Assembly: GCA_946623195.1 (NCBI GenBank)
Contig: CAMOQW010000015.1
Coordinates: forward strand, 1 to 27,838
Direction: 5' to 3'
Origin: an uncultured Prevotella sp.
Lineage (GTDB): Bacteria > Bacteroidota > Bacteroidia > Bacteroidales > Bacteroidaceae
Length of the DNA: 27,838 bases
A program made the translations under genes and the position numbers. The notes under the pieces were generated by a model. That model was given only the letters and a program-made list of their open reading frames with translations, was not told where the DNA came from and searched no databases. Shown here one piece after another: positions 31 through 26,805 of the stretch (position 1 is its first letter; the number at the start of each line of letters is the position of its first letter).

Positions 31-1218
31 TTAGTATAGGAAGCCAAGTAGCCACAGGGGTATCTGGTTGTCCTTTCCAATTTCAGTGTTATAGCGTGCA
101 TAGATAGTATCTGGCGCATACCTTATTTTATTTGGTGCACTGGCATCGCAGACACGGAATTTCATCTTGCCGTCTACTGTGTAGAAACTGTCATGCCCGT
201 TCTGGTTGACCTTGTGGTCTTTCCAGAGAGAATTGACAAAGAATGTCTCCATTGCCGTCTGTTTCTCTACATGGATGGGGTAGATGGCATAGAGCAGGTT
301 ACTATTATGGAGCATGATCTTCGACGGCTTTTTGGGAAAGTCTTCGCCCACGGGATAAATCATGTTCAGCAGTCGTGCATCAGTCAGATACTTGATATAG
401 TTCATCACCGTGGCACGGCTGGTCTCAATGTCGTTAGCCAGTTTCGACACGTTGGGAGCCTTAGGCCCTTCTTCAGCCAGTTCGTAGAACAGCTTCTTGA
501 TTTTCGTCAGATACTTCAGCTCTATCTGCTTGATGAGCAGAATGTCCACCTCAGTCATCATGTTCATCGTCTTCAGCAGGTTTTCGCTGTAGTTGCGCTG
601 TTCCTGGAAGAAAGGGTAGAATCCATGATGGATGTAGTCTTGGAAGTAGCGGTTGGGTGATACCTTGGGCAGTATCTGCTTGATGATGCGCTCATGGTCG
701 CGCAGTATTTCCTCCAGGGTATATGCCTGGAAGTCGTTGCCCGTCATCAGATTGATGAATTCGCGGAAAGAGAAACCTCTGAGATTGTACGACTTGACGA
801 TGCCGTTCAGCTCGGGATTCTCATCCTTCAGGCGCATCACGCTGGAGCCCGTGAAGACAATCTTCAGATAGGGGTAGAGGTCGTAGCACTTACGCAGTTC
901 CGAACTCCAGTCGGGCTGTTTGAACACCTGGTCAATCAGCAGCACGCGACCTCCGTGACGGCAGAATTCGCCAGCAAAGTCGGCAATACCACGCCCCTGG
1001 AAGTAGAAGTTGTTCATATTGATGTACAGGCACTGGCGGTCGTTGGTATCGAAGTGCTCCTTGGCATACTGTAAAAGAAAGGTTGTCTTCCCGACACCTC
1101 GTGTACCTTTGATGCCAATCATGCGGTCGCGCCAGTCTATCTCATCCATCAAGGAGCGACGAACCGGCGCATTGACATGCTCCACCAAGTAGCGATGTGT
1201 CCGAAAGAAAGCTTCCAT
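31..1218 (-). CDS. AAA-type (AAA_14-like) ATPase with C-terminal winged-helix-like region
   Basis: A 395-residue protein resembling the large family of stand-alone prokaryotic ATPases with an AAA_14 domain and a C-terminal DUF4143-like or helix-turn-helix region. The Walker A motif GTRGVGKTT is at residues 38-46. The Walker B strand RVLLID is at about 91-96, and a sensor-like GSS follows at 124-126. In this family Walker B is normally followed by Glu (DE). Here the codon after Asp96 is CAG, so the motif reads DQ. Residues of about 255-290 (LANDIETSRATVMNYIKYL) look like a helix-turn-helix. No signal peptide or membrane segment is seen. The gene stands alone with its own promoter and is separated from the upstream operon by a terminator. 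The physiological role of these ATPases is poorly known, and I assign only the fold. Confidence 0.85.
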   Translation of the reverse strand: MEAFFRTHRYLVEHVNAPVRRSLMDEIDWRDRMIGIKGTRGVGKTTFLLQYAKEHFDTNDRQCLYINMNNFYFQGRGIADFAGEFCRHGGRVLLIDQVFKQPDWSSELRKCYDLYPYLKIVFTGSSVMRLKDENPELNGIVKSYNLRGFSFREFINLMTGNDFQAYTLEEILRDHERIIKQILPKVSPNRYFQDYIHHGFYPFFQEQRNYSENLLKTMNMMTEVDILLIKQIELKYLTKIKKLFYELAEEGPKAPNVSKLANDIETSRATVMNYIKYLTDARLLNMIYPVGEDFPKKPSKIMLHNSNLLYAIYPIHVEKQTAMETFFVNSLWKDHKVNQNGHDSFYTVDGKMKFRVCDASAPNKIRYAPDTIYARYNTEIGKDNQIPLWLLGFLY

Positions 1219-1327: not shown

Positions 1328-1352
1328 TAAAAAAGGTAGTCAGTGACTACCC
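1328..1352 (-). terminator. Intrinsic terminator of the six-gene signalling operon
   Basis: GGTAGTCA (1335-1342) and TGACTACC (1344-1351) form an inverted repeat. Read on the minus strand it gives a 6-7 bp hairpin followed directly by six T residues and a further AT-rich stretch. It begins 9 bases after the stop codon of the last TonB receptor gene, so it closes that operon and insulates the ATPase gene downstream. Confidence 0.8.
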
Positions 1353-1360
1353 AATAATGA

Positions 1361-3916
1361 TTAGAATTTGTAAGATATGTCGAACAGGAACCAGCGGCCG
1401 CGCTGTGGAATGAGACCGGTATTGACACCGCTGAGTGAGTATTTCCTGTTGAACAGATTGTGGATGTTGAGGGCCAGCCCGAGCTTGCCTATCTGATAGT
1501 CGGCACCCACGTTGACGGTGAAATAGGGATTGATATCTTTAGTCACAGTAGTTTCCTTGCTCAACTTTTCTATGTTCTCATAAGCAGTGTTAAACTCTTG
1601 CAGCTCGGAGGGCGTCATCTTGTCGAAGTCGATACTCTGAGTCGCCGTATTCCAGTATTTTTCCATTAATGTCAAGTACACCTCGTTATATTTATAGAGT
1701 AGCATGTAGTTGACTATGTTGGCAAACTGGGTGGTCTGCTTATCGCAGAAAGCGATGTTGGCATGCAGTCTCAGCCTGTCGGTAAGTTTCCATGCCAACA
1801 CACTGTTGACGGAGAACTTAGGTGTGTTGAACGGATGCGGATATTCATTATCGAACACTTCGAATTTTCTGGTAGCCAGCCAGGTGGCGATAAGATTGGC
1901 CGTGAAGCGACGGGTGGTGTATCTGCCTGAGAACTCTAGTCCGTAGAGATCGGAGTTGCTGCCGTTGAGGTGTTCCAGCAAGTTGGGCACGATGAGGTTC
2001 TTGGCGTGGTTGTAGAAAGCATTGACCTCGAAGTTAAGACCTTTTACCCATTGTGTGGCTCCAAACGTCAGCTGGTAGGAATGCAGCGTCTCAGGGTCGA
2101 TATTGGCGGTGAGTTCCTTGAGGTTCAGCCCCTCGAATGCCGTCAGGAAAAGGTTCGACTTACGATAGAAAAATGGAGCATCGATGAATGCCTTCGAGTA
2201 GCTCAGCTTGACATTCCACTTAGGCTGCGCGTAGATGAGAGCCACACGGGGTGAGAACTCGCGGATGGTCGTGGAATCGTAGCGAAACTTGTAGTCGAAG
2301 CGTAAACCGGCATTGAGTATGAGTGAACGCCACTGGTGTTTCAATTGTATATAGCCGTTGGCGCTGTTCTCGTGGGCTTTGCCGAGATCAGAGACAATGT
2401 TGTTTTCGGGCAGTGTCAGTTTGAAGTTATAACCGAAAACATAGCGGGTGTCGTCTAATTTGAAGTAAGAGTATTCAGCGCCGAAAGACAGCAACCCTTT
2501 ATGATGCTGGTTGTTCATATAGCTCCAGTCACCTTGTAGTTTGATGCCGAATGTGTGCTCCTGTCCGCTGACATAACGAGAGTAACCGCCATGGTCGTTG
2601 GCTTTCAGCTGTTCCAGAGCCGCATCATCGATGGGCAGCAATTCTATGAAACCAGGCAGTTTCTGGTCGCTGATGGCTTGGTAGTGAGTCATGTCGCTAT
2701 TGTCGTAGCTGACGGTGCCGCGCAGGAATACATTGTCAAACTGATGCTGAAGACTGAGGTGGGCATGGTGTGAAGATGTGGTAAAGCTGGGACCGACAGC
2801 GTTGAACGTCTTGTAAGAGTCATGATTGTAGGGTTCGAAAAGGAAAGACATGGTCAGGGGAGCCTGTACTTGCGAGAACTGAGAGGTATAGAGGAACTGC
2901 AGGTTTTTGTAGCGTAAAGAGCTGCCGAACTCGTAGGAGGGCTTATTACCTATAGCTCCAACTGTGGCATAGCCGTCGGAGCCGTAGCTTTGGCCGAGTC
3001 CGGTTTCTTCCTTTGGAATGAAAAAGTCCTGGCCTGCTGACTTGTACAGGTTGGCCCACAGCAGAATGTCAAGATCGAAGAACCGTTTGCCAAACAGAAT
3101 GTTGCCGCGCAACTGGCGGTAGTTGCCCACACCAGCTGACAGTCGGACACCATCCACGTCAGCTCCGCTTTTGGTGATGAGGTTGACCACAGCTGTCAAT
3201 GCCACATTGCCGTAGAGTGAGGAGGCCGGGCCGCGCAGCACCTCAATCTGTTTCAGCTTTTCGAGTCCGATGCTGAAGTCTGGCGAAGCTATATTGGTTG
3301 AGTAGCTGTTCAGTCGGTGACCGTTCAGCATGACGAGTATTTTCTCTTGTCCGTTGCCGTAGATGCCTCGCATGGAGATGTTGATGTCATCGTTGCAGTC
3401 GATGATGTTCATGCCGGGCACATAGGTTGCCAACACTTCCTGCAGGTTGCGTGCTCCTGAGTCGTGTATCATCTCTTCTGTGATGAGTGTGATGGGCACG
3501 GGTACCTCACTCAGCTGTTCAGCCTGGCTTGATGCGGTAGTAATGGTGGCTGACATGCCTCTCTTGATATTCTCTACCATGTCGGTGAAGCGCTGGTAGT
3601 CATCAAGTGTAGGGGTGTAGTAGGGGTTGTCAGCTAGCAGCAGCTGTGTGTATTTCTCAGCCAGATCATCGCGGTCGACGGCCATATTGGTAAGTGCCAA
3701 CAGGCGGTAGACACTTTGAAGCAGGTCGTTGGGGAATTTTCCCAGATTGTTAGACAGCAGACTATCCGCTTGCTCGAATCGTCCGATAAAGTATTCTGAC
3801 TCAGCTTGCTTGTAGATGGCACGGTAGTCGGTAGTACTGTTTTGTGCGTAACCGCCGGTGAAAACTCCAAGCGGGATGAATAGTGCGTAAAGTCGTATAA
3901 TGTTACTTTTGTTCAT
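1361..3916 (-). CDS. TonB-dependent outer-membrane receptor with N-terminal TPR-like module (paralogue 1)
   Basis: An 851-residue outer-membrane protein. A signal peptide (about residues 1-25, ending AYAQ) is followed by a TPR-like helical stretch (about 30-118) containing FEQADSLL and a terminal FTDMVENIK segment. A linker with ITTASS leads into the plug domain, which shows VPVPITLITEEM, the LRGPASSLYGNVA plug signature and VVNLITKSG. A long beta-barrel region ends in the aromatic C-terminus FDISYKF typical of outer-membrane barrels. No SusD-like partner or CarboxypepD_reg repeat is present, so a classical polysaccharide-utilisation receptor is unlikely. The gene starts 3 bases after the stop of its paralogue and is the last gene of the operon. 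The ligand is unknown; a role in signal input or in uptake tied to the kinases is an inference from context. Confidence 0.9.
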   Translation of the reverse strand: MNKSNIIRLYALFIPLGVFTGGYAQNSTTDYRAIYKQAESEYFIGRFEQADSLLSNNLGKFPNDLLQSVYRLLALTNMAVDRDDLAEKYTQLLLADNPYYTPTLDDYQRFTDMVENIKRGMSATITTASSQAEQLSEVPVPITLITEEMIHDSGARNLQEVLATYVPGMNIIDCNDDINISMRGIYGNGQEKILVMLNGHRLNSYSTNIASPDFSIGLEKLKQIEVLRGPASSLYGNVALTAVVNLITKSGADVDGVRLSAGVGNYRQLRGNILFGKRFFDLDILLWANLYKSAGQDFFIPKEETGLGQSYGSDGYATVGAIGNKPSYEFGSSLRYKNLQFLYTSQFSQVQAPLTMSFLFEPYNHDSYKTFNAVGPSFTTSSHHAHLSLQHQFDNVFLRGTVSYDNSDMTHYQAISDQKLPGFIELLPIDDAALEQLKANDHGGYSRYVSGQEHTFGIKLQGDWSYMNNQHHKGLLSFGAEYSYFKLDDTRYVFGYNFKLTLPENNIVSDLGKAHENSANGYIQLKHQWRSLILNAGLRFDYKFRYDSTTIREFSPRVALIYAQPKWNVKLSYSKAFIDAPFFYRKSNLFLTAFEGLNLKELTANIDPETLHSYQLTFGATQWVKGLNFEVNAFYNHAKNLIVPNLLEHLNGSNSDLYGLEFSGRYTTRRFTANLIATWLATRKFEVFDNEYPHPFNTPKFSVNSVLAWKLTDRLRLHANIAFCDKQTTQFANIVNYMLLYKYNEVYLTLMEKYWNTATQSIDFDKMTPSELQEFNTAYENIEKLSKETTVTKDINPYFTVNVGADYQIGKLGLALNIHNLFNRKYSLSGVNTGLIPQRGRWFLFDISYKF

Positions 3917-3919
3917 CAG

Positions 3920-6286
3920 TTAAAACGTATAAGCTATGGACGCTATCAGGTTGCGGCCGCGTTGTCGGTAGGGGTACATGTTGAAGTCTGCGCCAGTCAA
4001 ATAACGTTTGGTGTCAAGTATGTTTTCACAATCCACAGCCAGTTGCAGTCTGCCGTTGAATGTATACTTGGCTCCTAAGTCGAAAATGACGGTCTTGTCG
4101 AGATATTTTTCCTGAAGAGATGTGCCGTCTTCGGTATAATGGGAATTCATCAGTTTACTCCCCTCGTACTTGGCATTGCCGTAAATCTTCAGTGCATGCA
4201 TCTTGTGCTTGATGAGTTGATACCCCACGTTCAGATTGGCAGTCAGGTGTGGTACGCTGAGCACCCGGTGTTTGGCTTCGCTATAGAAATAATTGTCAGC
4301 TTTCCAGTCCTTACACCAGTAGAAATTGAGCAAGGCCATCAGACGTGACTGTTTGTACATCAGACTGGCCTCGACCCCGAAGTTCTTATACATCCCCTCG
4401 TTTTCCCACCTGTTTCCTGTAGCCTGATAAGACTGGAAGTAGAGATTCTCATATTTGTTGTAGACGAGATTGACATCGTAGGAAAGATGCCATGGCTCAA
4501 TGCGTCCCATCAGGTTAAACTGTATGGCAGTGAGATATTGTGGCAGGTATTCGGAATCTATAAAATAATTCTGCATCGAACGGTAGTAGTACGACATGTC
4601 AACAAACGATTTGGCGTACGTTAGTTTCATGCTGAAGTCTGTCTTAGGACTATAAATCAAGGCCAGACGGGGCGACACAGCCTTTACGTTGTCTTGTTCG
4701 AATCGGTGTTTGATGTCGTAACGAATGCCTGCGTTGAGAATCAGCTTCGACGTAAAATTGTGCTTGCCCTGCGCATAGAACGACAGGCTGTTTTCTGCCG
4801 CCTTGACATCTTTTGTCAGAAAGGGTGGCTCACTAAAAACCCCAGTGTATGAACTGCCTGAAACAAACGACATTTCCGTCAGTCTGAAATGCTCATACTG
4901 CGCACCGATGAGGAAGTTGCCCTTCATGCCGCCCAGACTGTATTTGGTGCTGGCTCTCAGATTGCTGCCCATCGTACCCTCCTTGAATTTACCATAGTTG
5001 TAAATGCCATAGAGCGTGAACTCATCATCCGGCTCTTTGACTGACTCATCACCGGCAGCCTCGTAAAAATGATGGGCATACCAGTCGCCGTAAGCCGAGG
5101 CGTTGAGCGTTACGTTTCCGAGCATACGGGTGTAGCCAATTTCGACATGATTTTCCTCTATTCCCTTTCCGGGCATGATGCCATCCATGCTTCTGTACTT
5201 GTCGTAATCGTAATAACCCATGCTACCATACTGCGTCAGTTTTTTGCTGTTTTTCCTGGAGAACATGATGTCAAACCCCTTGTATTTGAATGACATGCCG
5301 ATGTCATAGCTTGGTGTGTCCTTATAGGCATCAACAAAGGCATTGAATTTTGGGTTGATGTCAGTTAGGAAATGGTTATTGTACTCCTTGGCGTCACGCG
5401 CTGGAATCAATTGTCCGTCAGACCGGTAGAATGAGCCCCATACCAAGATGTCAGCATCCATAAAACGGGTGCCGGCCACCAGGTCTGCCTTATGCGTATT
5501 GAACGAGCCGTAGCCGTACTTGGCCTTCACACCGTCAACGTCCTTTCCGCTCTTGGTGATAATGTTCACCACAGCCGATAGCGCCACGTTGCCGTATAGA
5601 GAAGACGCCGGACCGCGCAACACCTCGATGCGTTCTATCTTCTCCGTGCTGATGGCGTAGTCCATCGAACAGCTATTTATAAAACGGTTGTTCAGCCGGT
5701 GACCGTTCTCCATGACGAGTATGAGTTCCTGATAGACGTTGAATGCACCATGCATCGACATGTTATCTTCTTGCCCTGTCGACACTTCTGCCATACCGGG
5801 AACGAAGGTGGCCAGTATCTGGCCCAGACGCTTGTTATAGCCCAGGCTCTCAATCATCTCGCTGGTGATGATGGTGACGGGTACAGGAGCCTCGTTGATG
5901 GTCTCCGACACGCTGGAAGCCGTGGTAATGGTGGTGATGTGGCCTGCCTTCAGCCGGTTGACCATATCTTCGAAACGGATAGGATCATTGACGGTATTGT
6001 AGAAGTTGTTGAGCTCTATCAGCTGACTGGCATAGCGTTCGGCTTCGGCTTCTTTGTCTTGTGCCAAATAGCACAAGGCTATTAGGCGCAGTGCCTTCTG
6101 CTTGTCGGCTGTATGCATGTTGCCGATGTTACTCAGAAGCAATTCCAACGCCTGGTCAAACTGCCCCAGCTCATAGTTCTCGCCGGCTTGCTCCAGCAAC
6201 TGCGTATGGTTATCGTTTTGTGCTAACAACGGGACAGCAGACAGAAGAGCGATCAACAATATGTAAAGAAACCGGGCATGCGTCAT
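3920..6286 (-). CDS. TonB-dependent outer-membrane receptor with N-terminal TPR-like module (paralogue 2)
   Basis: A 788-residue paralogue of the next gene in the operon, with the same layout. It has a signal peptide (residues 1-23, cleavage near LLAQ) and a TPR-like stretch at about 28-110, with YELGQFDQALELL, LIALCYLAQDKEAEAERYA and a DPIRFEDMVNRLK tail. The ITTASS linker leads to a plug with VPVTIITSEMIES and LRGPASSLYGNVA, and the barrel ends in ASIAYTF. Its ATG overlaps the TGA of the upstream kinase gene (ATGA at 6286-6283), so translation is probably coupled. The two receptors differ widely in barrel loops while keeping the N-terminal module, as expected if ligands differ but the periplasmic partner is shared. 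That last point is inference. Confidence 0.9.
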   Translation of the reverse strand: MTHARFLYILLIALLSAVPLLAQNDNHTQLLEQAGENYELGQFDQALELLLSNIGNMHTADKQKALRLIALCYLAQDKEAEAERYASQLIELNNFYNTVNDPIRFEDMVNRLKAGHITTITTASSVSETINEAPVPVTIITSEMIESLGYNKRLGQILATFVPGMAEVSTGQEDNMSMHGAFNVYQELILVMENGHRLNNRFINSCSMDYAISTEKIERIEVLRGPASSLYGNVALSAVVNIITKSGKDVDGVKAKYGYGSFNTHKADLVAGTRFMDADILVWGSFYRSDGQLIPARDAKEYNNHFLTDINPKFNAFVDAYKDTPSYDIGMSFKYKGFDIMFSRKNSKKLTQYGSMGYYDYDKYRSMDGIMPGKGIEENHVEIGYTRMLGNVTLNASAYGDWYAHHFYEAAGDESVKEPDDEFTLYGIYNYGKFKEGTMGSNLRASTKYSLGGMKGNFLIGAQYEHFRLTEMSFVSGSSYTGVFSEPPFLTKDVKAAENSLSFYAQGKHNFTSKLILNAGIRYDIKHRFEQDNVKAVSPRLALIYSPKTDFSMKLTYAKSFVDMSYYYRSMQNYFIDSEYLPQYLTAIQFNLMGRIEPWHLSYDVNLVYNKYENLYFQSYQATGNRWENEGMYKNFGVEASLMYKQSRLMALLNFYWCKDWKADNYFYSEAKHRVLSVPHLTANLNVGYQLIKHKMHALKIYGNAKYEGSKLMNSHYTEDGTSLQEKYLDKTVIFDLGAKYTFNGRLQLAVDCENILDTKRYLTGADFNMYPYRQRGRNLIASIAYTF

Positions 6287-7104
6287 TTCTTGATGGGAAA
6301 AGTCATGGTGAATGTGGTGCCAATGCCTTCCTGACTTTCAAAGCTCAGGCTGCCTTGATGCTTGTTTTCTATGATGTCGCGTGTGATAGACATGCCCAGT
6401 CCTGTGCCTTGTCCTACAGGCTTGGTCGTGAAGAAATTTTCGAAAAGCCGTACCTTCACTTCATCGTTCATGCCTTCGCCATTGTCTTTAATGACGATGA
6501 TGATATTGGTGCCGTCACTGCTGACCTTCACATCAATGGTGGGTGAGTAGTTGCCATCTTGCTGTTGCTGTTTATGCCAGACGGTATAGCATGCATTATT
6601 CATCAGGTTGAGCACGGCACGGCTGATGTCCTGGGGAATCACTCGCACCATCGGGATTCCCTCCTGATAGTCTTCGTGAATAGTAAGGTTAAAACCTTTA
6701 TGACTGGCGCGCATGGCGTGATAGGACAGCCATACATACTCCTTCACGATACGGCAGACGTCTGAGGGTATGAACTCGCTCTCGTTTCCCCGCGAGACAA
6801 GTAGTATACCCTGAATGATGTTGATGGCACGCTCGCCGTGTTCTACTATCTTGCTCAAGTTCTCTTTCAGGTCGGCGACGATGTCGTCTACTTCCTGGCG
6901 GTCGTCGTCTGAAAAACGCTCGGCATTGTCTTCGACAATCTCGGCTAGGTCGTTCAGCAACTTGTCTGACATTTTGCTGAAGTTAATGACGAAGTTGAGC
7001 GGGTTCTGTATCTCGTGGGCTATACCGGCACTGAGTATGCCGAGGGCGGCCAGTTTCTCCTGTTCCTTCAGTTGCTGTTGCAGTGTCTCTAATTCTTTCT
7101 CCAT
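6283..7104 (-). CDS. Soluble sensor histidine kinase with intact H-box
   Basis: A 273-residue cytoplasmic kinase with no signal peptide, membrane segment or PAS domain. A short coiled-coil lead (1-20) runs into the dimerisation/phosphoacceptor helix GIAHEIQNPLNF with His30. The ATPase domain has the N-box NLMNNA (Asn170), G1 box DNGEGM (207-212), F-box FENFFTTK and G2 box GQGTGLGMS (231-239). All catalytic motifs are present. It follows the membrane-bound kinase-like gene by 11 bases and overlaps the next receptor gene by 4. Since it has no sensor domain of its own and its neighbour lacks the phosphoacceptor His, the two may act as a split sensor/kinase pair (inference). The likely phosphate acceptor is the receiver-phosphatase encoded first in the operon. 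Confidence 0.9.
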   Translation of the reverse strand: MEKELETLQQQLKEQEKLAALGILSAGIAHEIQNPLNFVINFSKMSDKLLNDLAEIVEDNAERFSDDDRQEVDDIVADLKENLSKIVEHGERAINIIQGILLVSRGNESEFIPSDVCRIVKEYVWLSYHAMRASHKGFNLTIHEDYQEGIPMVRVIPQDISRAVLNLMNNACYTVWHKQQQQDGNYSPTIDVKVSSDGTNIIIVIKDNGEGMNDEVKVRLFENFFTTKPVGQGTGLGMSITRDIIENKHQGSLSFESQEGIGTTFTMTFPIKK

Positions 7105-7115
7105 AGCTATTGGCT

Positions 7116-9881
7116 TTATAGGGTTGGTAAAGTAATGGTGAACTCGGTATATTCATTCTTTACAGACTCGACGGTGATGTCGCCACCGTGATTCTGGGTT
7201 ATTTCCTTGCTCAGGTAGAGTCCTACACCTGAGGCTTCACCTGTTGTCTTGGTAGTGAAGAACGGGTCAAATATCTTGTGGAGGATATTCTCGCTGATAC
7301 CGGTTCCGTTGTCGTGGATGGTCAGATAGGCAGTCTTGCCCGATTGATGGAGTTTCAACTTGATAGCGAGACCGGACTCAGTTCGTTCTTTCTTCTCATC
7401 CTTTTTACATACGGCATATACGGCATTGGCCAGCAGGCTCATTACCGTCTTGCTGAGCAACTCTGTGTTACCGTTGATCATCAGCGGTGTACTGGGCAGT
7501 TGGAAACTGATGTCGATATGGTGCAGGGCAATCTCGTTCTTATAGTAGTTCTCTATCATCTTGTGGTTCTGCTTCAGCATGGCACAAAGGTCCATAGGCG
7601 CCAAATTTCCAGAGTGGTTCTTCAGCATTTCCTCCATAGCCTTCAGCGTACGGGTGGTGTTGGCGCCATGTTCGCCGACTTTCTGAAGGTTGACCTCCAG
7701 CATATTGAGTACATCCATCGTATCTTCGTAGTTCTCCTGGTCCATGTTGTCTTTCTCGTCCTCAATATTAGCGGTCACGTCCTTGACAAGTCCCTGCGAG
7801 AGTTTGCTGAAGTTGTTGATGTAGTTCAGGGGGTTAAGTATGCGGTCTATCAGTCCTTGCGTCAGTTTACCGACGGTGGCCATTTTCTCCAGCCGCACCA
7901 CTTCGGCAGTCCTGTCTTTTACGATGTTCTCCAGTCGCACTTTCTCCTTTTCGAGGCGGCTCAGACGGAAACGTATCAGCAAGTAGACTGTCAGGGCGAG
8001 GGCGATAACGTAAAGAGCCATCATGTACCAGCGCATGTAGAGCGGGAAGTCATAGTTGATGTTCAGCCTGACCACATCGGAAGTGCGTCCGAAGGCATCA
8101 CGGCCCTGTATCTCTAATATATTGGTGCCATAGGGCTGATTGATCATCTCAACGCTATTATCGTCATCCCACTGGCTCCACTTGTTATCGTTGACACGAT
8201 AGCGGAACTCAGGTTTGCCTATGGCGACAGGGAAATTCAACGAATAGTGGATGCGAAGGTGACGTTCGTTGCTGGCCAAGGTCGGCAGCGATTGGGGCTG
8301 CTGCCCGTAACCTCCGTACAACACACTGTCTTCGCGCAGGGTGATGCTACGCAGCAGCACTTCGGGCTTGGTTTTCATCAGCATCGGCTCAACGTCGGTG
8401 TCAATAGTGAATATGCCTCGCTCACCGCCTACCCAAAGCTTATTTCCGTCTTGCAGCACAGCTCTTACTGAGTAGTCCATGAAAGGTTTTACCAGTCTGG
8501 ACAATTTGGCGTCAACTGCCTCGTCAGTGAATGCATACAGACCGCGCCCCTTGTTGTTAGTCAGCCAGATGACTCCGTTGTTGTCGGAATACGAGAACAG
8601 AGGGTAGGGGAAGGGCTTTTTAGTGTTGGCAACGATGGGGTAAATCATACCGCCATTGTTGACGAGAGTGGCCACTTCCAAATTGTCTTTTTCAGATGTG
8701 AGGGCAACGAAGTCGTCCCCCCGTTTGCCTTTCCATATCTTGCCGTAGATGGTCTGCAGCCAGATGCAGCTGATGTTGTCTTTCAGAATGCGTACCACCT
8801 TTTCAATACTGTTCAGTTTCTGCCTCGTCCCGTCAGCATGGTTGTAGTACAGACCGTCCATCTCGCCGCTATAGAAGTTTTCGCCGTCAGCCATCAGCGA
8901 CAGTACGCTGGCAGAGGTAAGCCGCCTGACGCTGCCGTTGTTGTTGACACGGAATACTCCGTCCATGGTGGCTGCCAGCAGATGGTCACCATGGCTGATG
9001 AGTTGCCACGTGGTATGAGTGATTTCATTGACAGGCACGAAACGGCGACCTTCCTTCCGGTAGAGTCCGCTCAGTGTTCCGGCGTAGATGTGGCCGCCTG
9101 ATTTCAGCAGCGACAGCACTTCGCCGCGCAGTCCTTCTGTTGTCGTGAAACGTGAGAAAGCCGAAGGGAAGGAAATGACAAAGACGCCGTTGTCTGTGGC
9201 ACCCCATAGCTGACCCTTATTAAAGGTAATGTGTGCCACGTTGTCTGAGCATAGTCCGTCCTGTTCCTTGATACTGAAAAGTCTGTTGCCATTCTGATCC
9301 GTAATAATCACACCGTCGCCGTTTGTGGCCAGTGCCTGCAGTCCGTTTCCCAGCTGTTGAATTTGGTTGATGTGTAATTTGTCGCTAAGGGTGGCAAAGC
9401 CCGTTGTGGGCGTAGTGGCTTCCGGATGCCGTTCTATCTTCTCGCCTGTGATGCTGAATATCTGATTGCCACTGGTAAGAAACCATATGGAGCCGTCTTT
9501 CTCCCAGATCCAGTTTACCTCGCCATGAAACGGCGTAGCGGTCAGTGTCTTGAGCCTCAGTTCTCCTTTGGCGGTTGTGGTCAGGTAGCCTATGTAATTG
9601 AACCCCCCGGTCCAGATGATATTTTTAGAATCGCGGTATAGACTGGTGATACGTGTGACTCCTGGCGTGTGGAGCATGTGCCACTCCGCATTGTCGAAGT
9701 AGAGCAGGCCTTCGAAGTTGGCCACATAGATGGTGCCGTCGTCGCCAGTGATGATGTCGAAATTCTGATTGTGTCCGTTGTACTCCGTTGCCGGGTAGTT
9801 TCGGATGAAGGGGAGGCCCTGTGCCGTCATCTGCAGGGTCACGCAGATTTGGAGGGCGACGAGTAGTGCTAACTTTCTCAT
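7116..9881 (-). CDS. Propeller-type membrane sensor kinase homologue lacking the phosphoacceptor histidine
   Basis: A 921-residue protein when started at 9881, where MRKLALLVALQ gives a signal peptide and the ATG overlaps the upstream TGA (ATGA). A start at 9944 would lie inside the upstream gene. Periplasmic two-component-regulator propeller repeats fill most of the first 500 residues (for example DSKNIIWTGG and DGSIWFLTSG). A Y_Y_Y domain (FRYRVNDNKWSQW) follows, then one membrane helix (about 616-636), a coiled coil and a dimerisation helix. The H-box reads GLIDRILNPLNYI: Asp679-Arg680 replace the usual His-Glu, checked on the bases at 7847-7842. The ATP-binding domain keeps an N-box, DNGTGI, FDPFFTTK and SGVGL. 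This is the domain order of the hybrid two-component sensors of Bacteroides, but without receiver or AraC domains. It probably senses in the periplasm and cannot autophosphorylate in the usual way. Confidence 0.9.
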   Translation of the reverse strand: MRKLALLVALQICVTLQMTAQGLPFIRNYPATEYNGHNQNFDIITGDDGTIYVANFEGLLYFDNAEWHMLHTPGVTRITSLYRDSKNIIWTGGFNYIGYLTTTAKGELRLKTLTATPFHGEVNWIWEKDGSIWFLTSGNQIFSITGEKIERHPEATTPTTGFATLSDKLHINQIQQLGNGLQALATNGDGVIITDQNGNRLFSIKEQDGLCSDNVAHITFNKGQLWGATDNGVFVISFPSAFSRFTTTEGLRGEVLSLLKSGGHIYAGTLSGLYRKEGRRFVPVNEITHTTWQLISHGDHLLAATMDGVFRVNNNGSVRRLTSASVLSLMADGENFYSGEMDGLYYNHADGTRQKLNSIEKVVRILKDNISCIWLQTIYGKIWKGKRGDDFVALTSEKDNLEVATLVNNGGMIYPIVANTKKPFPYPLFSYSDNNGVIWLTNNKGRGLYAFTDEAVDAKLSRLVKPFMDYSVRAVLQDGNKLWVGGERGIFTIDTDVEPMLMKTKPEVLLRSITLREDSVLYGGYGQQPQSLPTLASNERHLRIHYSLNFPVAIGKPEFRYRVNDNKWSQWDDDNSVEMINQPYGTNILEIQGRDAFGRTSDVVRLNINYDFPLYMRWYMMALYVIALALTVYLLIRFRLSRLEKEKVRLENIVKDRTAEVVRLEKMATVGKLTQGLIDRILNPLNYINNFSKLSQGLVKDVTANIEDEKDNMDQENYEDTMDVLNMLEVNLQKVGEHGANTTRTLKAMEEMLKNHSGNLAPMDLCAMLKQNHKMIENYYKNEIALHHIDISFQLPSTPLMINGNTELLSKTVMSLLANAVYAVCKKDEKKERTESGLAIKLKLHQSGKTAYLTIHDNGTGISENILHKIFDPFFTTKTTGEASGVGLYLSKEITQNHGGDITVESVKNEYTEFTITLPTL

Positions 9882-11446
9882 TTGACGGCCTCCCTTCCTG
9901 TAAATGTCTCGTACGGTATGTTGCTTCCTATATAATAGTTCCACTCATCGCGTGTCAGATTGCGTTTTATCAGACTTTTCAGTTGGGTGGTCATAACGGG
10001 TACGGACATGATAGTACGTGTAAGTGTGCCTTTATAGTCGCCACACCAGATATAGTTCTTGTCGCTGTCAAAGTTGAAGTCAATGATCCAGCCGTTAGTT
10101 TGGGCGATGGGAATGGGTTCTATCTTTGTGTTGTCAACCATCCATAGGTTGATGGTGCCGTCGTAGCTGGCAGAATAGATGCGCCATCCGTTGATCTTGA
10201 TTTTCGAGATGCGTGAGCGGTGCCCCACCAGTTTGTACGACTTGCCTTGGCGGTCAATATAGTAAATAGTGCCGTCTTTCATGCCGTAGGCCTGGATGCC
10301 GATGCTGTTGGAACTGGCATAGGCGGTCACCTGTCCGCTGAAAGGCACACGCTGATTGTCCTGACGGTTGAGACTGAAAATCTTATGCATGCCGCCTTGA
10401 TCGTCGAAGACGAAAGGTATGCCTTTTACCCGACAGACGGTTACTATTTTATAGGGCAGCGGCTTGCTGCCGTTTTGTTGCCAACTCTTACGGTCTATAC
10501 GTGCCAGTCCGCGGTCGCCGATGATGAGCAGCTCGTTACCGACGGTGTCCAGGCGCAAAGGGTGTCCGATACCGCTGATTTCGTGGATGATGTTCTTGCC
10601 GTTCTGACGGACCAGCAGATGACCTGTCCGGCTGACAGCTAATATGGCTCCTGTACGCCGGTCTGTCTTCACATCGCGGAAGTCATAGCTTTTATTGGTG
10701 AACAGCGAGTCGGTACGCAAATGGGAACCGTCGGCTTGGTGGGAGAATAGTTCACCATAGCTGCTACAGGTCAGAAAGCGCGGCACTTTATTACCAGACA
10801 GGAAGCTGATGCACTCTATCGGTCCCTTATGGCGGTTCCATTGGCGCTTGCTTTGACTGGTCATCACCAGTGCCTGATGGATGGTTGGATAATATAAATC
10901 ACCGTTATAACGTCGTGTATATACGCAGGCGGCATAGGCTAACAGGTTGGCCAGTTCTGTATGGCCGGTCTGATATTGCGTGATAGCCACATTGCCCAGT
11001 TGTCTGGCCAGTGTGAGATAGCTCAACGTGTCAGCAACCCTTTTGGAGAATTCAGCCTGTGTACGCTGGTTCTCTGCGATGATGCGCTGGGTGTTGGCTG
11101 TCTCCTCGGCTTGCTGGGCCAGGTGCTGTGCGGTCAAGGCTTTCTGCTGCTCTGCCTCTGCGTGGCGTCTCATTTCTTCGGCCACCTTCGTCTGTTGCTC
11201 GGCAGCCTCGCGCTGTTCGTCACTTATCTGACGTTCCTGCAGGGCTATCTCCTCCATCTGGGCATTGATGCTCTGCATGATGGCTGACCTGTTCTCCTTC
11301 TTGCTCAGCTCTTCTATCTGTACTTTTAGTTCCTCCGTCTTACGGGTTTCCCTTTCGTACATCATGTAGATGCCGATACAGCCGCCCCCTGCGAGTAACG
11401 TGAGACACAAAACCAGGAGAGTACTTGTCTTTCCGAATATTTTCAT
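9878..11446 (-). CDS. Membrane-anchored coiled-coil / WD40-like repeat protein
   Basis: A 522-residue protein. One N-terminal membrane helix (about 8-28) is followed by a long charged, Gln/Glu/Ala-rich coiled coil (about 32-145) rich in ERQ, EEMRRHAEAEQQ and QQAEETA stretches. A helical segment ARQLGNVAITQYQTG ... ELANLLAYAA comes next. The remainder (about 190-480) reads as degenerate beta-propeller repeats, the clearest being KINGWRIYSASYDGTINLWMV. The C-terminus has NLTRDEWNYYIG, similar to the tail of WD40 proteins that follow NACHT/nSTAND ATPases. Whether the propeller faces the cytoplasm or the periplasm cannot be decided from sequence alone. The gene overlaps its neighbours by ATGA at both ends, so it is an integral part of the operon. 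A scaffold between receptors, kinases and phosphatase is plausible but unproven. Confidence 0.8.
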   Translation of the reverse strand: MKIFGKTSTLLVLCLTLLAGGGCIGIYMMYERETRKTEELKVQIEELSKKENRSAIMQSINAQMEEIALQERQISDEQREAAEQQTKVAEEMRRHAEAEQQKALTAQHLAQQAEETANTQRIIAENQRTQAEFSKRVADTLSYLTLARQLGNVAITQYQTGHTELANLLAYAACVYTRRYNGDLYYPTIHQALVMTSQSKRQWNRHKGPIECISFLSGNKVPRFLTCSSYGELFSHQADGSHLRTDSLFTNKSYDFRDVKTDRRTGAILAVSRTGHLLVRQNGKNIIHEISGIGHPLRLDTVGNELLIIGDRGLARIDRKSWQQNGSKPLPYKIVTVCRVKGIPFVFDDQGGMHKIFSLNRQDNQRVPFSGQVTAYASSNSIGIQAYGMKDGTIYYIDRQGKSYKLVGHRSRISKIKINGWRIYSASYDGTINLWMVDNTKIEPIPIAQTNGWIIDFNFDSDKNYIWCGDYKGTLTRTIMSVPVMTTQLKSLIKRNLTRDEWNYYIGSNIPYETFTGREAVK

Positions 11447-12609
11447 GCTTTACGCTTCAGAGCCATGATGGTGATGTCGTCGCTTTGTGGCGCCTCACCC
11501 GCAAAAGTGCGTACATCGTCCAACAGACCGTTAATGATATCGCTACAGTCCTTTCCTTTCATCGAGGCCAGAACCTGCTCCATGCGCGTCTCGCCATATT
11601 CTTCTAACGATACGTTGAAAGCCTCGTTCACGCCATCAGTATACATCAGCAGGGTATCGCCCGGATGCAGCTGTGCATTGTGCTCTTCGAACGTGACACC
11701 GTCAATACAGCCCACAACAGTGTTTACGCTCTGAGGCAGCTGTTCTACCATACCGTTGGCCCGCAGGATAAAAGGTGAGTTGTGGCCTCCGTTGCAATAA
11801 GCCAGTTCTCCTGTCCTGATGTTGTAGATAGCATAGAATACGGTAACGAACATACAGTCAGCAGACTCCTTGCTTAGCAGCTCATTGGATTTAGTCAGAC
11901 ACTTTCCCGGCGTTCCGCCCTGTAGTCCTACGGTCCTGATGAGTGTGCGGCTGACAGCCATGAAGATAGCGGCCGGTATACCTTTCCCGCTGACGTCGGC
12001 CATCACCACGCCGATGTGGTCGTCGTCAATGCGGAAGAAATCGTAGAAGTCGCCGCCCACATCCTTTGCGGGAGTCATCAATGCTGCCAGATCCAGCTCA
12101 TGCTCGTTCTCGGGGAACGGCGGGAAGATGCGAGGCAGGATGGCCTGTTGTATCTCGGCGGCCACAGCCAGGTCTGTTTTCAGCAATTCCAGCTGCGTAT
12201 GCTCCTCTTGCGCCTGTTTGATATAATGTATCTGCTCGATGGCCTTCTCGATGGTAAGGCTGAGGTCGTCGAGGTCGATGGGCTTCGTGGCGAAGTCGAA
12301 GGCCCCGTTGTTCATCGCCTGGCGGATGTTGCCCATGTCGCCATAGGCCGACACCATGATGCACTTCAGCGCGGGGTTACGCAGCTCGTTCACCTTCGTG
12401 AGCAGCGTCAGGCCGTCCATCTCGGGCATGTTGATGTCGCTCAGGATGATGTCGAAGTCCTTCTCCCTGAGGAGCATGGTAAGGGCCTCAAGGCCGTTGT
12501 GGGCAAAGTGGAACTCATACTCTCCCTTCCTGATTTTCCGTCTGAAGTATTGTGTCAGGAGCAACTCGAGGTCGTTCTCGTCATCGACACTAAGTATTTT
12601 TACTGGCAT
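11443..12609 (-). CDS. Response regulator fused to SpoIIE/RsbU-type PP2C Ser/Thr phosphatase
   Basis: A 388-residue cytoplasmic protein. The N-terminal receiver domain (about 1-125) has the acidic pair Asp9-Asp10, phosphoacceptor Asp58 in ILSDINMPEMDG, Ser86 in MVSAYG and Lys109 in TKP. A coiled-coil linker (about 120-158, including the AAEIQQAILP element seen in RsbU-like proteins) leads to a PP2C SpoIIE domain (about 180-385). Metal-binding motifs are GGDFYDFF, ADVSGKG (Asp205), GGHNSP, YTDGVNEA (Asp325) and SDDITIMAL (Asp377-Asp378). Phosphorylation of the receiver presumably controls phosphatase activity. No STAS antagonist, anti-sigma kinase or sigma factor lies nearby, so the substrate is not evident. 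As first gene of the operon it follows a good promoter. Confidence 0.93.
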   Translation of the reverse strand: MPVKILSVDDENDLELLLTQYFRRKIRKGEYEFHFAHNGLEALTMLLREKDFDIILSDINMPEMDGLTLLTKVNELRNPALKCIMVSAYGDMGNIRQAMNNGAFDFATKPIDLDDLSLTIEKAIEQIHYIKQAQEEHTQLELLKTDLAVAAEIQQAILPRIFPPFPENEHELDLAALMTPAKDVGGDFYDFFRIDDDHIGVVMADVSGKGIPAAIFMAVSRTLIRTVGLQGGTPGKCLTKSNELLSKESADCMFVTVFYAIYNIRTGELAYCNGGHNSPFILRANGMVEQLPQSVNTVVGCIDGVTFEEHNAQLHPGDTLLMYTDGVNEAFNVSLEEYGETRMEQVLASMKGKDCSDIINGLLDDVRTFAGEAPQSDDITIMALKRKA

Positions 12610-12641: not shown

Positions 12642-12673
12642 CAAAATTACGGTTATTTATCAAGAATACCAAA
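12642..12673 (-). promoter_or_regulatory. Promoter of the six-gene signalling operon
   Basis: On the minus strand TTTG (12673-12670), a 20-base spacer and the -7 box TAATTTTG (12649-12642) match the Bacteroidetes consensus. Predicted transcription starts near 12635, giving a leader of about 25 bases before the ATG at 12609. The promoter is back to back with the one serving the plus-strand gene at 12753. Confidence 0.7.
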
Positions 12674-12702: not shown

Positions 12703-12710
12703 TAATTTTG
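12703..12710 (+). promoter_or_regulatory. -7 element for the ATP-grasp-like gene
   Basis: TAATTTTG matches the TAnnTTTG -7 consensus and lies about 43 bases before the ATG at 12753. No convincing TTG-type -33 box is seen 19-21 bases upstream. The last base of the element is the first base of a 30-bp tandem duplication. Confidence 0.5.
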
Positions 12711-12769
12711 TGGCCTGTAACGACGAAACTACATATATTGTAGCCTGTAACGATGAAACTACATATTTT
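12710..12769 (+). repeat. 30-bp imperfect tandem duplication spanning a gene start
   Basis: Copies 12710-12739 and 12740-12769 match at 27 of 30 positions. The core CCTGTAACGAnGAAACTACA is shared. The second copy carries the ATG start of the downstream gene; the first has ACG at the same place and an in-frame TAG after it. Only the second copy can therefore initiate. Confidence 0.9.
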
Positions 12770-13796
12770 CAATCCAGAACACGACATTGCCCTGGCGTCA
12801 GGCCTGAGCAATTTCACAGCACCCCATGCCGGGCGGCAGTTGCGCAGCGACGTGGGGTTCCTGCCGGCCTTGTGGGCCGGTGCCGGCGAGTGTGTGCTCG
12901 TAGAGCATGCCGACGAGGCGGAGCAGCGCTTCCGCCGCCTGATGAACCGGCCTTTCGGGCGGTTTGTAGAGAAACAGATGCTTTCGGTCATCGACATCAG
13001 CAGGATAGAGCCCTGGGGATGGGACGCCGCCCTCAAGGCCTTTCTGCTGCGCAGGGGGGTAAGGGCTGAGGTGCTGCCCGGCGACGAGCGGCTGCGGCTT
13101 ATCCGCCAGCTGTCGAGCCGTGCCACGGCCGTGGCGATGCTGCCACTGCTGCAGGGTCCGGGGCGCACGGGCGAGTCGGTGATGGCCCGCAGCCTGGGCG
13201 AGGCTGCCGACGCACTGGCCCGCTGGCAGAGCATCGTGGTGAAGGCGCCCTGGAGCAGCAGCGGGCGGGGCGTGCGCTTCGTCGGTGGCCAGATGGCACC
13301 GGCGGTAGAGCGCTGGATGGCGGGCGTCATCCGCAGGCAGGGGGCGGTCGCCATAGAGCCTCACTACCGTAAGGTGCGCGACTTCGCCATGGAGTTTGAG
13401 GCCGACGGACAGGGGGCGGCGCGCTATTCTGGACTGTCGCTCTTCCAGACGGAGAACGGAGCCTATCAGGGGAACATCATCGCCTCCGAGGAGGAGAAGA
13501 TGGAGATGATAAGCCGCTATCTGCCAGAGCGTTTGCTGCGCGATGTTCAAGAAGAGATTTGCCAGAGCTTCAGCCGCCTGCAGAACCATCCCTACCAGGG
13601 GCCGTTCGGGGTCGATATGATGGTGGTGGCACGCCCCGATGCACAGGGATTCCTGCTGCATCCCTGCGTGGAGCTCAACCTGCGCCGCACCATGGGCCAC
13701 GTGGCCCTCGGCCTGCAGCACTGCTGTCCGCTGCCGTCGGTGATGCGCGTTGTCTGCTCGGAAGACCATTACAAGATTAAAATACAGCGTATATGA
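12753..13796 (+). CDS. Uncharacterised ATP-grasp-like protein
   Basis: A 347-residue protein starting MKLHIFNPEHDIALASG. I recognise it only as a conserved Bacteroidales hypothetical protein. The central VVKAPWSSSGRGVRF (about 162-176) resembles the glycine-rich ATP-binding loop of ATP-grasp enzymes. The later IEPHYRKVRDFAMEF, GPFGVDMMVV and CVELNLRRTMGHVAL resemble the strands and metal/ATP ligands (Asp, Glu-x-Asn) at the end of that fold. A carboxylate-amine or similar ligase is possible, but no substrate can be assigned. No signal peptide is present. The gene is very GC-rich (70% in a hand count of bases 13201-13260) and its stop overlaps a possible start of the following glycosidase reading frame. 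Both ends of the gene carry a 30-bp tandem duplication. Confidence 0.75.
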   Translation: MKLHIFNPEHDIALASGLSNFTAPHAGRQLRSDVGFLPALWAGAGECVLVEHADEAEQRFRRLMNRPFGRFVEKQMLSVIDISRIEPWGWDAALKAFLLRRGVRAEVLPGDERLRLIRQLSSRATAVAMLPLLQGPGRTGESVMARSLGEAADALARWQSIVVKAPWSSSGRGVRFVGGQMAPAVERWMAGVIRRQGAVAIEPHYRKVRDFAMEFEADGQGAARYSGLSLFQTENGAYQGNIIASEEEKMEMISRYLPERLLRDVQEEICQSFSRLQNHPYQGPFGVDMMVVARPDAQGFLLHPCVELNLRRTMGHVALGLQHCCPLPSVMRVVCSEDHYKIKIQRI

Positions 13797-13828
13797 GATT
13801 ACAAGATCAAAATCCAACGTATATGAGA
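13769..13828 (+). repeat. 30-bp imperfect tandem duplication spanning a stop/start junction
   Basis: Copies 13769-13798 and 13799-13828 match at 27 of 30 bases. Each ends in an ATGA where a stop of the upstream frame and a start of the GH43 frame overlap. In the upstream frame both copies read YKIKIQRI then TGA, and all three differences fall at third codon positions and are synonymous. The duplication gives the glycosidase gene two in-frame ATGs, at 13793 and 13823. Confidence 0.9.
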
Positions 13829-15499
13829 AAACTATTTCTACTGGCTGCCGCCCTGCCACTGATGGCCGGCGCGCAGTACAAATCGCAGGTGTGGTCGCCC
13901 GACAATGGCGACGGCACCTACACCAACCCCGTCATCAATGCCGACTACAGCGACCCCGACGTCTGCGTGGGGCCCTCCGGCGAAGACTACTACATGACGG
14001 CCAGCTCGTTCCAGTGTACGCCCGGACTGCCCATCCTGCACTCCCGCGACCTGGTGAACTGGCAGATAGTGGGCTATGCCCTGCGCAATCTCTACGAGGG
14101 CGACGCCCGGCTGCTGGAACACTTCAGCCAGCCCCGTCACGGTGCCGGCGTGTGGGCCCCCTCTATCCGCTTCCACGAGGGCCAGTACTACATCTACTGG
14201 GGCGACCCCGACTATGGCTGCTACATGGTGAAGACCAAAAATGGCGACCCGACCGGCGAGTGGGAGCAGCCCGTCTGCGTGATAGCCGGACAGGGCATCA
14301 TCGACACCACGCCGCTCTGGGACGACGACGGCCGCTGCTATCTGGTGAACGGATGGGCCAACTCGCGCTCCAAGTTTGCCTCTGTCTTGTGCGTGCGCGA
14401 ATTGAATAAGGAGGGCACGCAAGCCATCGGCGAACCCGTCATCGTGTTCGACGGCAACGGCACCGAGCACCGCACCTGCGAGGGCCCCAAGTTCTACAAG
14501 CGCGAGGGCTGGTATTGGATTATGTGTCCGGCAGGCGGCGTACCCACGGGCCATCAGCTGGCCATGCGCGCCAAGTCACCCTACGGACCCTATGAGCACA
14601 AAATCGTGCTGCAGCAGGGCAAAACAAAAATCAACGGCCCTCACCAGGGCGCTTGGGTGCACAACAAGTATGGTGAAGACTGGTTCCTGCACTTCCAGGA
14701 CAAGGAGGCCTATGGTCGCGTGGTGCACTTGAACCCCGTCGACTGGTCTACCGGATGGCCCGTCATGGGCAAGAAGGGTGAGCCCGTCACTACATACAAG
14801 AAGCCCCAGTCGTCCAGCAACGTCATCGTCAACCCCCAGGAGAGCGACGAGTTCAATTCGCCCCTGCTCGGCAAACAATGGCAGTGGCACGCCAACTACC
14901 ACCAGTTCTTCGGCATGCCCACCGCCTTTGGCACCATGCGCATCTATACCCATAAACTCAGCGAGGGCTGGAAAAACCTCTGGGAGGTGCCCAACATGCT
15001 GTTGCAGAAGACCCCTGCCGACGAGTTTACCGCTACCGCCAAGATGCGCTTCACGTCGAAAGCCGACGGACAGATGGGCGGCATCATCATGATGGGCCAC
15101 AACTACCAGGCTCTGGTGGTGCGCCGCGAGGGCCGGGAGTTCAAGCTCGTCATCCTCACCTGTCAGGATGCCGACCGTGGCAAGGCTCAGCAGGAGGAGG
15201 TGGTGGCTACGCTGAAGCCCACCGCCGAAGACCAGATAGACTATAAGCCCGGCATCCACGAAGACATCTACCTGCGCCTGCGCGTCACCAATGCCGAGGC
15301 CGGAGCAGCTCATGGCGGCAAACCCCTGGTCAGCTTCGCCTGGAGCCTGAACGGCAAGAAGTTCACCGACTGCGGTGGCCAGTACCAGATGAAGGAAGGC
15401 AAGTGGATAGGTGCCAAGTTCGGTTTCGTGGCCGTAGAGACCAACCCCAAGGTTGACAAGGGCTGGATAGATGCCGACTGGATTCGCGTCGGGAGGTAA
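13823..15499 (+). CDS. Secreted glycoside hydrolase family 43 (beta-xylosidase / arabinofuranosidase type)
   Basis: A 558-residue exported hydrolase. The start at 13823 is preferred over the in-frame ATG at 13793 because MRKLFLLAAALPLMAGAQ then begins directly with a signal peptide. The five-bladed propeller of GH43 covers about 25-320. Its three acidic residues are visible: Asp44 (general base) in NADYSDPDV, Asp161 in GIIDTTPLWDDDG and Glu220 (general acid) in CEGPKFYKREGWYW. A C-terminal concanavalin-like region (about 345-555, from ESDEFNSPLLGKQWQW to the end) is the accessory domain often found in GH43 xylosidases and arabinofuranosidases. The exact substrate cannot be read from sequence; plant hemicellulose side chains or xylo-oligosaccharides are likely. 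No SusC/SusD pair is adjacent, so this is not a complete polysaccharide-utilisation locus. Confidence 0.92.
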   Translation: MRKLFLLAAALPLMAGAQYKSQVWSPDNGDGTYTNPVINADYSDPDVCVGPSGEDYYMTASSFQCTPGLPILHSRDLVNWQIVGYALRNLYEGDARLLEHFSQPRHGAGVWAPSIRFHEGQYYIYWGDPDYGCYMVKTKNGDPTGEWEQPVCVIAGQGIIDTTPLWDDDGRCYLVNGWANSRSKFASVLCVRELNKEGTQAIGEPVIVFDGNGTEHRTCEGPKFYKREGWYWIMCPAGGVPTGHQLAMRAKSPYGPYEHKIVLQQGKTKINGPHQGAWVHNKYGEDWFLHFQDKEAYGRVVHLNPVDWSTGWPVMGKKGEPVTTYKKPQSSSNVIVNPQESDEFNSPLLGKQWQWHANYHQFFGMPTAFGTMRIYTHKLSEGWKNLWEVPNMLLQKTPADEFTATAKMRFTSKADGQMGGIIMMGHNYQALVVRREGREFKLVILTCQDADRGKAQQEEVVATLKPTAEDQIDYKPGIHEDIYLRLRVTNAEAGAAHGGKPLVSFAWSLNGKKFTDCGGQYQMKEGKWIGAKFGFVAVETNPKVDKGWIDADWIRVGR

Positions 15500-19449: not shown

Positions 19450-19494
19450 ATCAAAAAAGCGTGTTGTTATGTCTTTGTTTTCTTTTCCGAGGTG

Positions 19495-19502
19495 CAAAAT
19501 TA
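19495..19502 (-). promoter_or_regulatory. -7 element for maeB operon
   Basis: On the minus strand TAATTTTG matches the Bacteroidetes -7 consensus, about 46 bases before the ATG at 19449. No clear TTTG is present at the expected -33 position, which would suit a promoter needing an activator. It lies back to back with the regulator's own -7 box 43 bases away. Confidence 0.55.
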
Positions 19503-24495: not shown

Positions 24496-24545
24496 AAGGG
24501 ATAAGTAGAAAGAAAAAGGAATCAAAGTAATTAATTTAGAATACA

Positions 24546-25553: not shown

Positions 25554-25591
25554 ATGAAAGATGAAGGATGAACAATTTAAAATGAAAGATT

Positions 25592-26182: not shown

Positions 26183-26217
26183 TATATTAAGTGTGGAATC
26201 ATGTAAACTACAGAGAA

Positions 26218-26799: not shown

Positions 26800-26805
26800 A
26801 GAGTT

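Follow-up and report, generated by a model that had tools for sequence, protein, structure and literature searches.

We propose that a six-gene operon in a 27,838-nucleotide stretch of DNA from an uncultured Prevotella sp. (assembly GCA_946623195.1, contig CAMOQW010000015.1; hereafter the window) encodes a split histidine kinase that drives a PP2C phosphatase-controlled partner switch in response to cues from the cell envelope, a scheme to which, taken as a whole, we assign a probability of about 0.62. Two findings carry the proposal. A propeller-bearing sensor kinase (pHK) has Asp-Arg in place of the phospho-acceptor His-Glu and keeps its ATP-binding motifs, and it is encoded beside a small soluble kinase (HK) that has both the histidine and the ATP motifs. 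In relatives, both kinases stand in one same-strand run with a STAS protein, an RsbW-type kinase and a response regulator fused to a PP2C phosphatase (RR-PP2C).

According to this scheme, envelope cues received by outer-membrane TonB receptors with TPR-like extensions, by an anchored periplasmic WD40 protein and by the propeller of pHK would alter pHK. Since pHK is left with an ATP site and no histidine to phosphorylate, it would act by pairing with soluble HK. Together the two would phosphorylate the histidine of HK, probably from one subunit of a mixed dimer to the other by means of the ATP lobe of pHK, and HK would hand the phosphate to the receiver of RR-PP2C. Receiver phosphorylation could then set the activity of the phosphatase on a phosphorylated STAS protein and so operate a STAS/RsbW partner switch. 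We infer the mixed dimer, the flow of phosphate with its sign, and STAS as the substrate in the window organism.

The genes are, in order of transcription:

11443..12609, minus strand: RR-PP2C, receiver (D58) and SpoIIE-type PP2C phosphatase, 388 aa (Pfam PF00072, PF07228)
9878..11446, minus strand: anchored WD40 protein, 522 aa (AlphaFold2 model, Foldseek, positive-inside rule)
7116..9881, minus strand: pHK, propeller kinase, 921 aa (Pfam Reg_prop and HATPase_c; Y_Y_Y below cut-off)
6283..7104, minus strand: HK, small soluble kinase, 273 aa, histidine H30 (Pfam HisKA and HATPase_c)
3920..6286, minus strand: TonB receptor 1 with TPR-like N-terminal extension, 788 aa (Pfam, model, Foldseek)
1361..3916, minus strand: TonB receptor 2, extended at its N terminus like receptor 1, 851 aa (Pfam, alignment)

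All six open reading frames lie within 1361..12609, where a preliminary description of this DNA had placed them. The three ATGA-type overlaps that it reported are each four bases long (11443-11446, 9878-9881 and 6283-6286), and the remaining junctions are gaps of 11 bases (7104 to 7116) and 3 bases (3916 to 3920), as it had stated. In transcription order, the Pfam domains are a receiver with SpoIIE, a WD40-like match, Reg_prop/Y_Y_Y/HATPase_c, HisKA with HATPase_c, and two TonB receptors.

A histidine-less sensor kinase and its histidine-bearing partner

The layout of pHK comprises a periplasmic Reg_prop propeller with a Y_Y_Y domain, one transmembrane segment and a histidine-kinase core. Its longest open reading frame starts at GTG 9944; the 921-aa version from ATG 9881 matches the length of the closest homologue (P0127). 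At the H-box, pHK reads GLIDRILNPL and HK reads GIAHEIQNPL. The Asp-Arg pair (D700 and R701) is present in the query and in every one of the best 120 of 2678 homologues, many of which are near-identical; it is equally invariant in the 36 sequences, query included, that remain below 75% identity, and in 41/41 pHK locus copies down to approximately 32% identity (one locus counted twice). A local mutation was rejected as the origin of the pair, since it is invariant in all copies examined and occurs at five other loci of a class-wide sample.

Compared with a canonical HisKA kinase, pHK lacks the phospho-acceptor histidine, and Pfam detects no HisKA domain in it, while the N-box Asn, DNGxGI, FFTTK and GxG motifs of its ATP lobe (the N, G1, F and G2 boxes) are kept in all 41 copies. 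HK has the full set of canonical HisKA features, with the phospho-acceptor histidine in 38/38 sequences and the ATP motifs retained; no sensor domain was found in it. Invariant positions in the 36-sequence pHK alignment amount to 49/108 in the dimerization and histidine phosphotransfer (DHp) region, 29/167 in the ATP lobe and 52/594 in the sensor. Judged by this alignment, the DHp region, the predicted dimer face, is the most conserved part of pHK, and because it is so conserved a dead relic is disfavored and strong constraint on the dimer face is favored. In a phylogenetic tree, a single clade (0.999) takes in all 47 pHK sequences and a second (1.0) the 41 partner HKs. Which ordinary sensor kinase is the sister of HK has weak tree support (0.53-0.58).

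Conservation of the module and its minimal versions

The order RR-PP2C, WD40 protein, pHK, HK, TonB receptor is found on a single strand in 34/43 loci, a set made up of the window, 11 contig loci and 31 genome loci (L008 and L143 being the same place). One of the 34, L114, has a nonribosomal peptide synthetase (NRPS) gene between HK and the receptor. Two departures are due to contig ends (L007, L115). The response regulator lies approximately 6 kb upstream in L116 and L117, with STAS/RsbW and other genes between; in L127 it diverges, together with HK, from the rest of the module; and L131 (genome G077) has no adjacent receptor. The remaining departures belong to genome G007, which has three pHK/WD40 loci: L143 (also L008) is without HK and receptor, L142 is without response regulator and HK, and L141, where alone HK and the beginning of a receptor gene are present, is complete but cut by the contig end. 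The same place, L008/L143, is thus counted twice among the 41 pHK, 41 WD40 and 40 response-regulator rows, and one of the latter (L006, 663 aa) is another protein. A contig scan was taken up by matches to the generic pattern K[IV]FDPFFT, and 12 of the 80 loci listed carry the module.

Co-occurrence was examined in 399 genomes of the family of G001. pHK (E <= 1e-100) was detected in 28 of them and the WD40 protein (E <= 1e-40) in the same 28, where the two genes are adjacent; at these thresholds neither was found without the other in any of the 399 (Fisher 1e-43, uncorrected for kinship). Two candidates per genome were scored in the class-wide search described below and two or three in this one, which makes the numbers of genomes minimum values. 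With a degenerate DNA pattern for GLIDRILNP, 23/399 genomes were matched, all within the 28; the five that it missed read GLVDRILNP (G008, G038, G175, G308) or are cut by a contig end (G242). HK stands beside pHK in 27 of the 28 family-sample loci, and the 28th is at a contig end.

A conserved order across genomes was the check suggested by the preliminary description, and synteny is strong. Because the gene order recurs in 34/43 loci, the packing goes beyond chance. The second TonB receptor is absent in some relatives, so that what is conserved is a set of five genes to which another receptor may be added.

A class-wide search of 395 genomes matched 19 genomes, of which 12 were inspected: five have Asp-Arg (G001, G510, G718, G739, G642) and seven an ordinary histidine (L153-L159). 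Genomes G510 (L161) and G718 (L163) encode, in order, STAS, RsbW, a pHK of 373 or 380 aa with GLVDRILNP, an HK of 277 aa with AHEIQNPL, and RR-PP2C, and G739 (L162) has two tandem pHK genes followed by HK and RR-PP2C. Pfam confirmed the STAS and HATPase_c_2 assignments in these minimal runs, which have no receptor, WD40 protein or propeller. Partner-switch genes also accompany fuller modules: in G175 and G308 the interval from RR-PP2C to WD40 contains two STAS genes and one RsbW gene, all on that strand, STAS precedes and RsbW follows the module in L122, and both are upstream in L143. Because other Bacteroidia carry this minimal STAS/RsbW/kinases/RR-PP2C version, the kinase pair with the phosphatase looks like the core and the partner switch like its output; the WD40 protein, propeller, TPR-TonB receptors and, in 12 relatives, the NRPS look like additions to it. 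The phosphatase had been proposed as the output before, and the same-strand runs support that proposal. They likewise support a relay from the kinases to PP2C; the two kinases, previously taken as a relay together, are not equivalent relays, as pHK has no phospho-acceptor histidine.

Related arrangements were seen elsewhere. G642 encodes two histidine-less kinases (GIVDRILNP) with other sensors (L164:8646-10835 and L165:7389-9413), one beside several ordinary sensor kinases, the other with TPRs and no kinase neighbors. In a Rhodothermales locus (L014:5712-10870), RR-PP2C is followed by HATPase_c_2, a periplasmic binding protein and an ordinary sensor histidine kinase, a run that is plausibly of the unsplit ancestor type.

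RR-PP2C has a receiver with a phospho-Asp fused to a SpoIIE-type PP2C domain, as expected of an RsfR-like protein, and its invariant PP2C residues presumably have active-site roles. A full-length RR-PP2C was found in 33/34 module genomes versus 0/46 module-negative genomes; the sole exception is G242, with its module on a 3.5-kb contig, and 9/46 negatives match the PP2C part only. The RsbW-type kinase (HATPase_c_2) is present in 32/34 module genomes versus 9/46 negatives, and in 11/13 of those module genomes where RR-PP2C is the sole match of its search. In the case of RsfR, phosphorylation reduces phosphatase activity, according to an excerpt of PMC10950880.

Several points weigh against our scheme. 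The 46 comparison genomes, many of which are large, were hand-picked among 371 negatives, and none of the tests is corrected for kinship. RsbW was not matched in two of the module genomes, G003 and G006, and in most module genomes it sits away from the module. Because RsbW and the match to the PP2C part fall in exactly the same nine negatives, RsbW may track SpoIIE phosphatases in general and not the RR-PP2C of the module. On the kinase side, HK has a complete ATP lobe of its own and might not need pHK to autophosphorylate; in G007, L142 and L143 (two of its three loci) have no adjacent HK, and the pHK of L165 has no neighboring HK.

Envelope components, rival explanations and genomic surroundings

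Pfam matches of the WD40 protein to WD40-like families are weak and below curated cut-offs, and the fold is backed by an AlphaFold2 model (mean pLDDT 85.6) with 28 strands, which we read as a seven-bladed propeller; Foldseek matched the model to WD40 propellers. Ahead of these strands, the model has a helix at 4-63 that includes the transmembrane segment and a long helix at 78-159, with a poorly modeled stretch at 53-79. Because positive charge precedes the transmembrane segment in 37/41 sequences, the coiled coil and propeller should, by the positive-inside rule, be periplasmic.

An N-terminal helical extension, judged by eye, is present in 40/40 aligned module receptors. In the model of receptor 1 (mean pLDDT 85.9) it forms five helices ahead of the plug, and a relative (P0322) carries PF13432, which we take to be a TPR family. 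No STN domain was detected by Pfam in either receptor of the window. The occurrence of this TPR-like extension in all 40 suggests a periplasmic partner. Linkage of the genes is what leads us to infer that the WD40 protein and receptors feed pHK. The receptors would serve as input, with a small siderophore-like or NRPS-made molecule as the putative ligand. In Foldseek, the structures closest to the barrel of receptor 1 are those of siderophore and cobalamin receptors. A SusCD-type nutrient locus was rejected given this barrel and the lack of SusD among the six genes.

An NRPS gene follows or splits the receptor genes in 12/28 family-sample loci (L114, L116, L117, L119, L120, L121, L123, L125, L126, L127, L130 and L144). 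Eight of the synthetases have one adenylation and one carrier domain; those of L116 and L127 begin with a condensation domain, and those of L114 and L125 have two modules. Their C-terminal part is thioesterase-like; Pfam recognizes it in L116 alone, apart from a match below cut-off in L114; Cys replaces Ser in the thioesterase-like motif of 10/12, and the motif was not found in the other two. Across 80 genomes searched, matches that span 690 or more of the 826 positions occurred at the module in the 12, elsewhere in the module genomes G077 and G210, and in 0/46 module-negative genomes. A synthetase adjoining the receptor suggests a self-made ligand. This is not general, because there is no NRPS among the window genes.

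It is possible, though doubtful in our estimation, that the locus serves TonB-dependent uptake and is merely transcribed together with the regulator of that uptake. The receptors would then be cargo or target, the kinases would respond to a different stimulus, and neither the receptors nor the WD40 protein would transmit a signal. The siderophore- and cobalamin-like barrels would fit this explanation, as would the minimal versions without receptor, WD40 protein and propeller and the locus of G077 without an adjacent receptor. However, pHK and the WD40 protein were never found apart in the 399 genomes at the thresholds used, and the TPR-like extension of 40/40 module receptors suggests a periplasmic partner.

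The main rival to a split kinase is a regulatory pseudokinase, akin to DivL for CckA or RetS for GacS, which binds HK and shifts its kinase/phosphatase balance without phosphorylating it. DivL and RetS are described in this way in an excerpt of a review, pHK has no phospho-acceptor, and HK is complete by itself. The residues of the pHK N-box, G1, F-box and G2, however, are kept in 41/41 copies, which is unexpected if ATP is unused; ATP binding without phosphotransfer would likewise preserve them. We regard this alternative as rather unlikely. That pHK and HK are independent homodimeric kinases with different targets, held together by operon inertia, is very improbable: each has an ATP lobe and pHK stands without an adjacent HK in L142, L143 and L165, but a pHK homodimer has no known phospho-acceptor, and HK accompanies pHK in 27 of the 28 family-sample loci, the other being at a contig end, as well as in three minimal loci.

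Beyond the split kinase driving the partner switch, a wider generalization can be offered as speculation that we think unlikely to hold in full. Bacteroidota might possess a distinct class of split kinases in which histidine-less sensor kinases, whose sensors can be exchanged (a short membrane anchor, TPR or propeller), share one soluble histidine-bearing kinase acting on a PP2C partner switch. In Prevotella relatives, TPR-TonB receptors and the anchored WD40 protein might have extended its reach over both membranes, and in many of these it might listen to a self-made small NRPS peptide, either signal or metallophore, encoded beside the receptor.

The operon is flanked by the following elements:

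12642..12673, minus strand: Bacteroidetes-type promoter, TAnnTTTG at approximately 12649 and upstream TTTG (sequence motif)
1334..1352, minus strand: intrinsic terminator 3' of the operon (8-pair stem, T-run)
12705..12764, no strand: two tandem 30-bp repeats upstream of the promoter (sequence comparison)

Both the promoter and the terminator, the latter previously given as 1328-1352, agree with the preliminary description; the stem and T-run occupy 1352-1334. TAnnTTTG occurs within 130 bp of the response-regulator start in 32/39 rows, versus a mean of 3.15 in 500 letter shuffles. The repeats, just 5' of the promoter, are 90% alike and have TGTAG...CTACA half-sites; the 30-bp repeat has zero exact matches among 147 loci. 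An AAA_14-type ATPase gene lies 3' of the module in the window (31-1218) and also in L005, L144 and L147 (1380-2567). A GH43 enzyme is encoded at 13793-15499, with relatives near the module in L001, L005, L124 and L141, followed by a malic enzyme-phosphotransacetylase fusion (17137-19497) and ordinary Rnf electron-transport genes on the plus strand (22190-27408). Genomic context beyond the 27.8-kb window comes from relatives, the named ones being mostly Prevotella or Prevotellaceae. Support for plasmid carriage was sought and not found, with two weak WD40 matches only.

Relation to known systems

If the mixed dimer is real, the pair would be a HisKA-type split kinase that occurs in nature and is conserved, and a test of how sensing and phospho-acceptor can reside on separate proteins. 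Several sensors might share one output, as the three pHK loci with a single adjacent HK in G007 and the two tandem pHK genes with one HK in L162 would allow. The scheme would also give Prevotella-type Bacteroidota a path by which outer-membrane receptors reach a STAS/RsbW switch.

The propeller of pHK belongs to the same periplasmic sensor family as the matched structures PDB 4a2l and 3v9f, which we take to be Bacteroides hybrid two-component system (HTCS) proteins. In HTCS proteins the sensor chain itself includes a receiver and an AraC-type output domain and keeps the usual histidine, and pHK has neither; a split-up HTCS was rejected, as the pHK chain ends after HATPase_c without receiver or AraC domain and the histidine is lost. 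We assume that nSTAND WD40 proteins share with the WD40 protein a transmembrane helix, an Ala/Gln/Arg-rich coiled coil, a WD40 propeller and a C-terminal EW...PY motif; unlike them, the protein described here has no NTPase domain. FecA-type signaling TonB receptors have a periplasmic N-terminal STN domain, lie beside signaling genes and act through an extracytoplasmic function (ECF) sigma factor. The module receptors, in contrast, have TPR-like helices in place of STN, and the output is two-component/PP2C.

Literature searches, confined to open-licence papers and hence weak evidence of absence, found, among the matches listed, no published description of the locus, of an Asp-Arg kinase class or of such a path from receptors to a STAS/RsbW switch. 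On the output side, excerpts of the papers on RsfSR-RsfB (PMC10950880) and HsbR-HsbA (PMC6482189) describe response regulators acting on an anti-sigma antagonist, and RsfR, like RR-PP2C, is a receiver-PP2C protein under histidine-kinase control (PMC10950880). RsfS is a single CHASE3 histidine kinase, and these excerpts (PMC10950880, PMC6482189) mention no histidine-less partner, WD40 protein or TonB receptor.

As for the kinases, ChrS/HrrS is, as excerpted from PMC9491836, a laboratory-evolved case. The FasB/FasC/FasA system resembles the present one in that two sensor-kinase-like proteins are reported to heterodimerize and phosphorylate one regulator (excerpt of PMC12675982). Unlike pHK, FasC, a proposed pseudokinase, keeps its histidine and has a dispensable kinase domain, and the Fas output is a DNA-binding regulator (PMC12675982). 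Closest in logic is CheA3/CheA4 of Rhodobacter sphaeroides, neither of which works alone, where, as the excerpt of PMC3591291 has it, kinase activity resides on a protein without a phospho-acceptor and the partner has the phospho-acceptor; in the Prevotella pair, the catalytic lobe without phospho-acceptor is that of pHK. The analogy does not extend to a partner without a catalytic lobe: CheA3 has no catalytic domain and belongs to the CheA class with a P1 domain, whereas HK has a complete HATPase_c, and CheA4 misses the whole P1 domain, whereas pHK has one residue pair exchanged inside a kept DHp region (PMC3591291). As far as can be seen, each part of the module is of a known kind, and the combination and the conserved Asp-Arg/His division are new.

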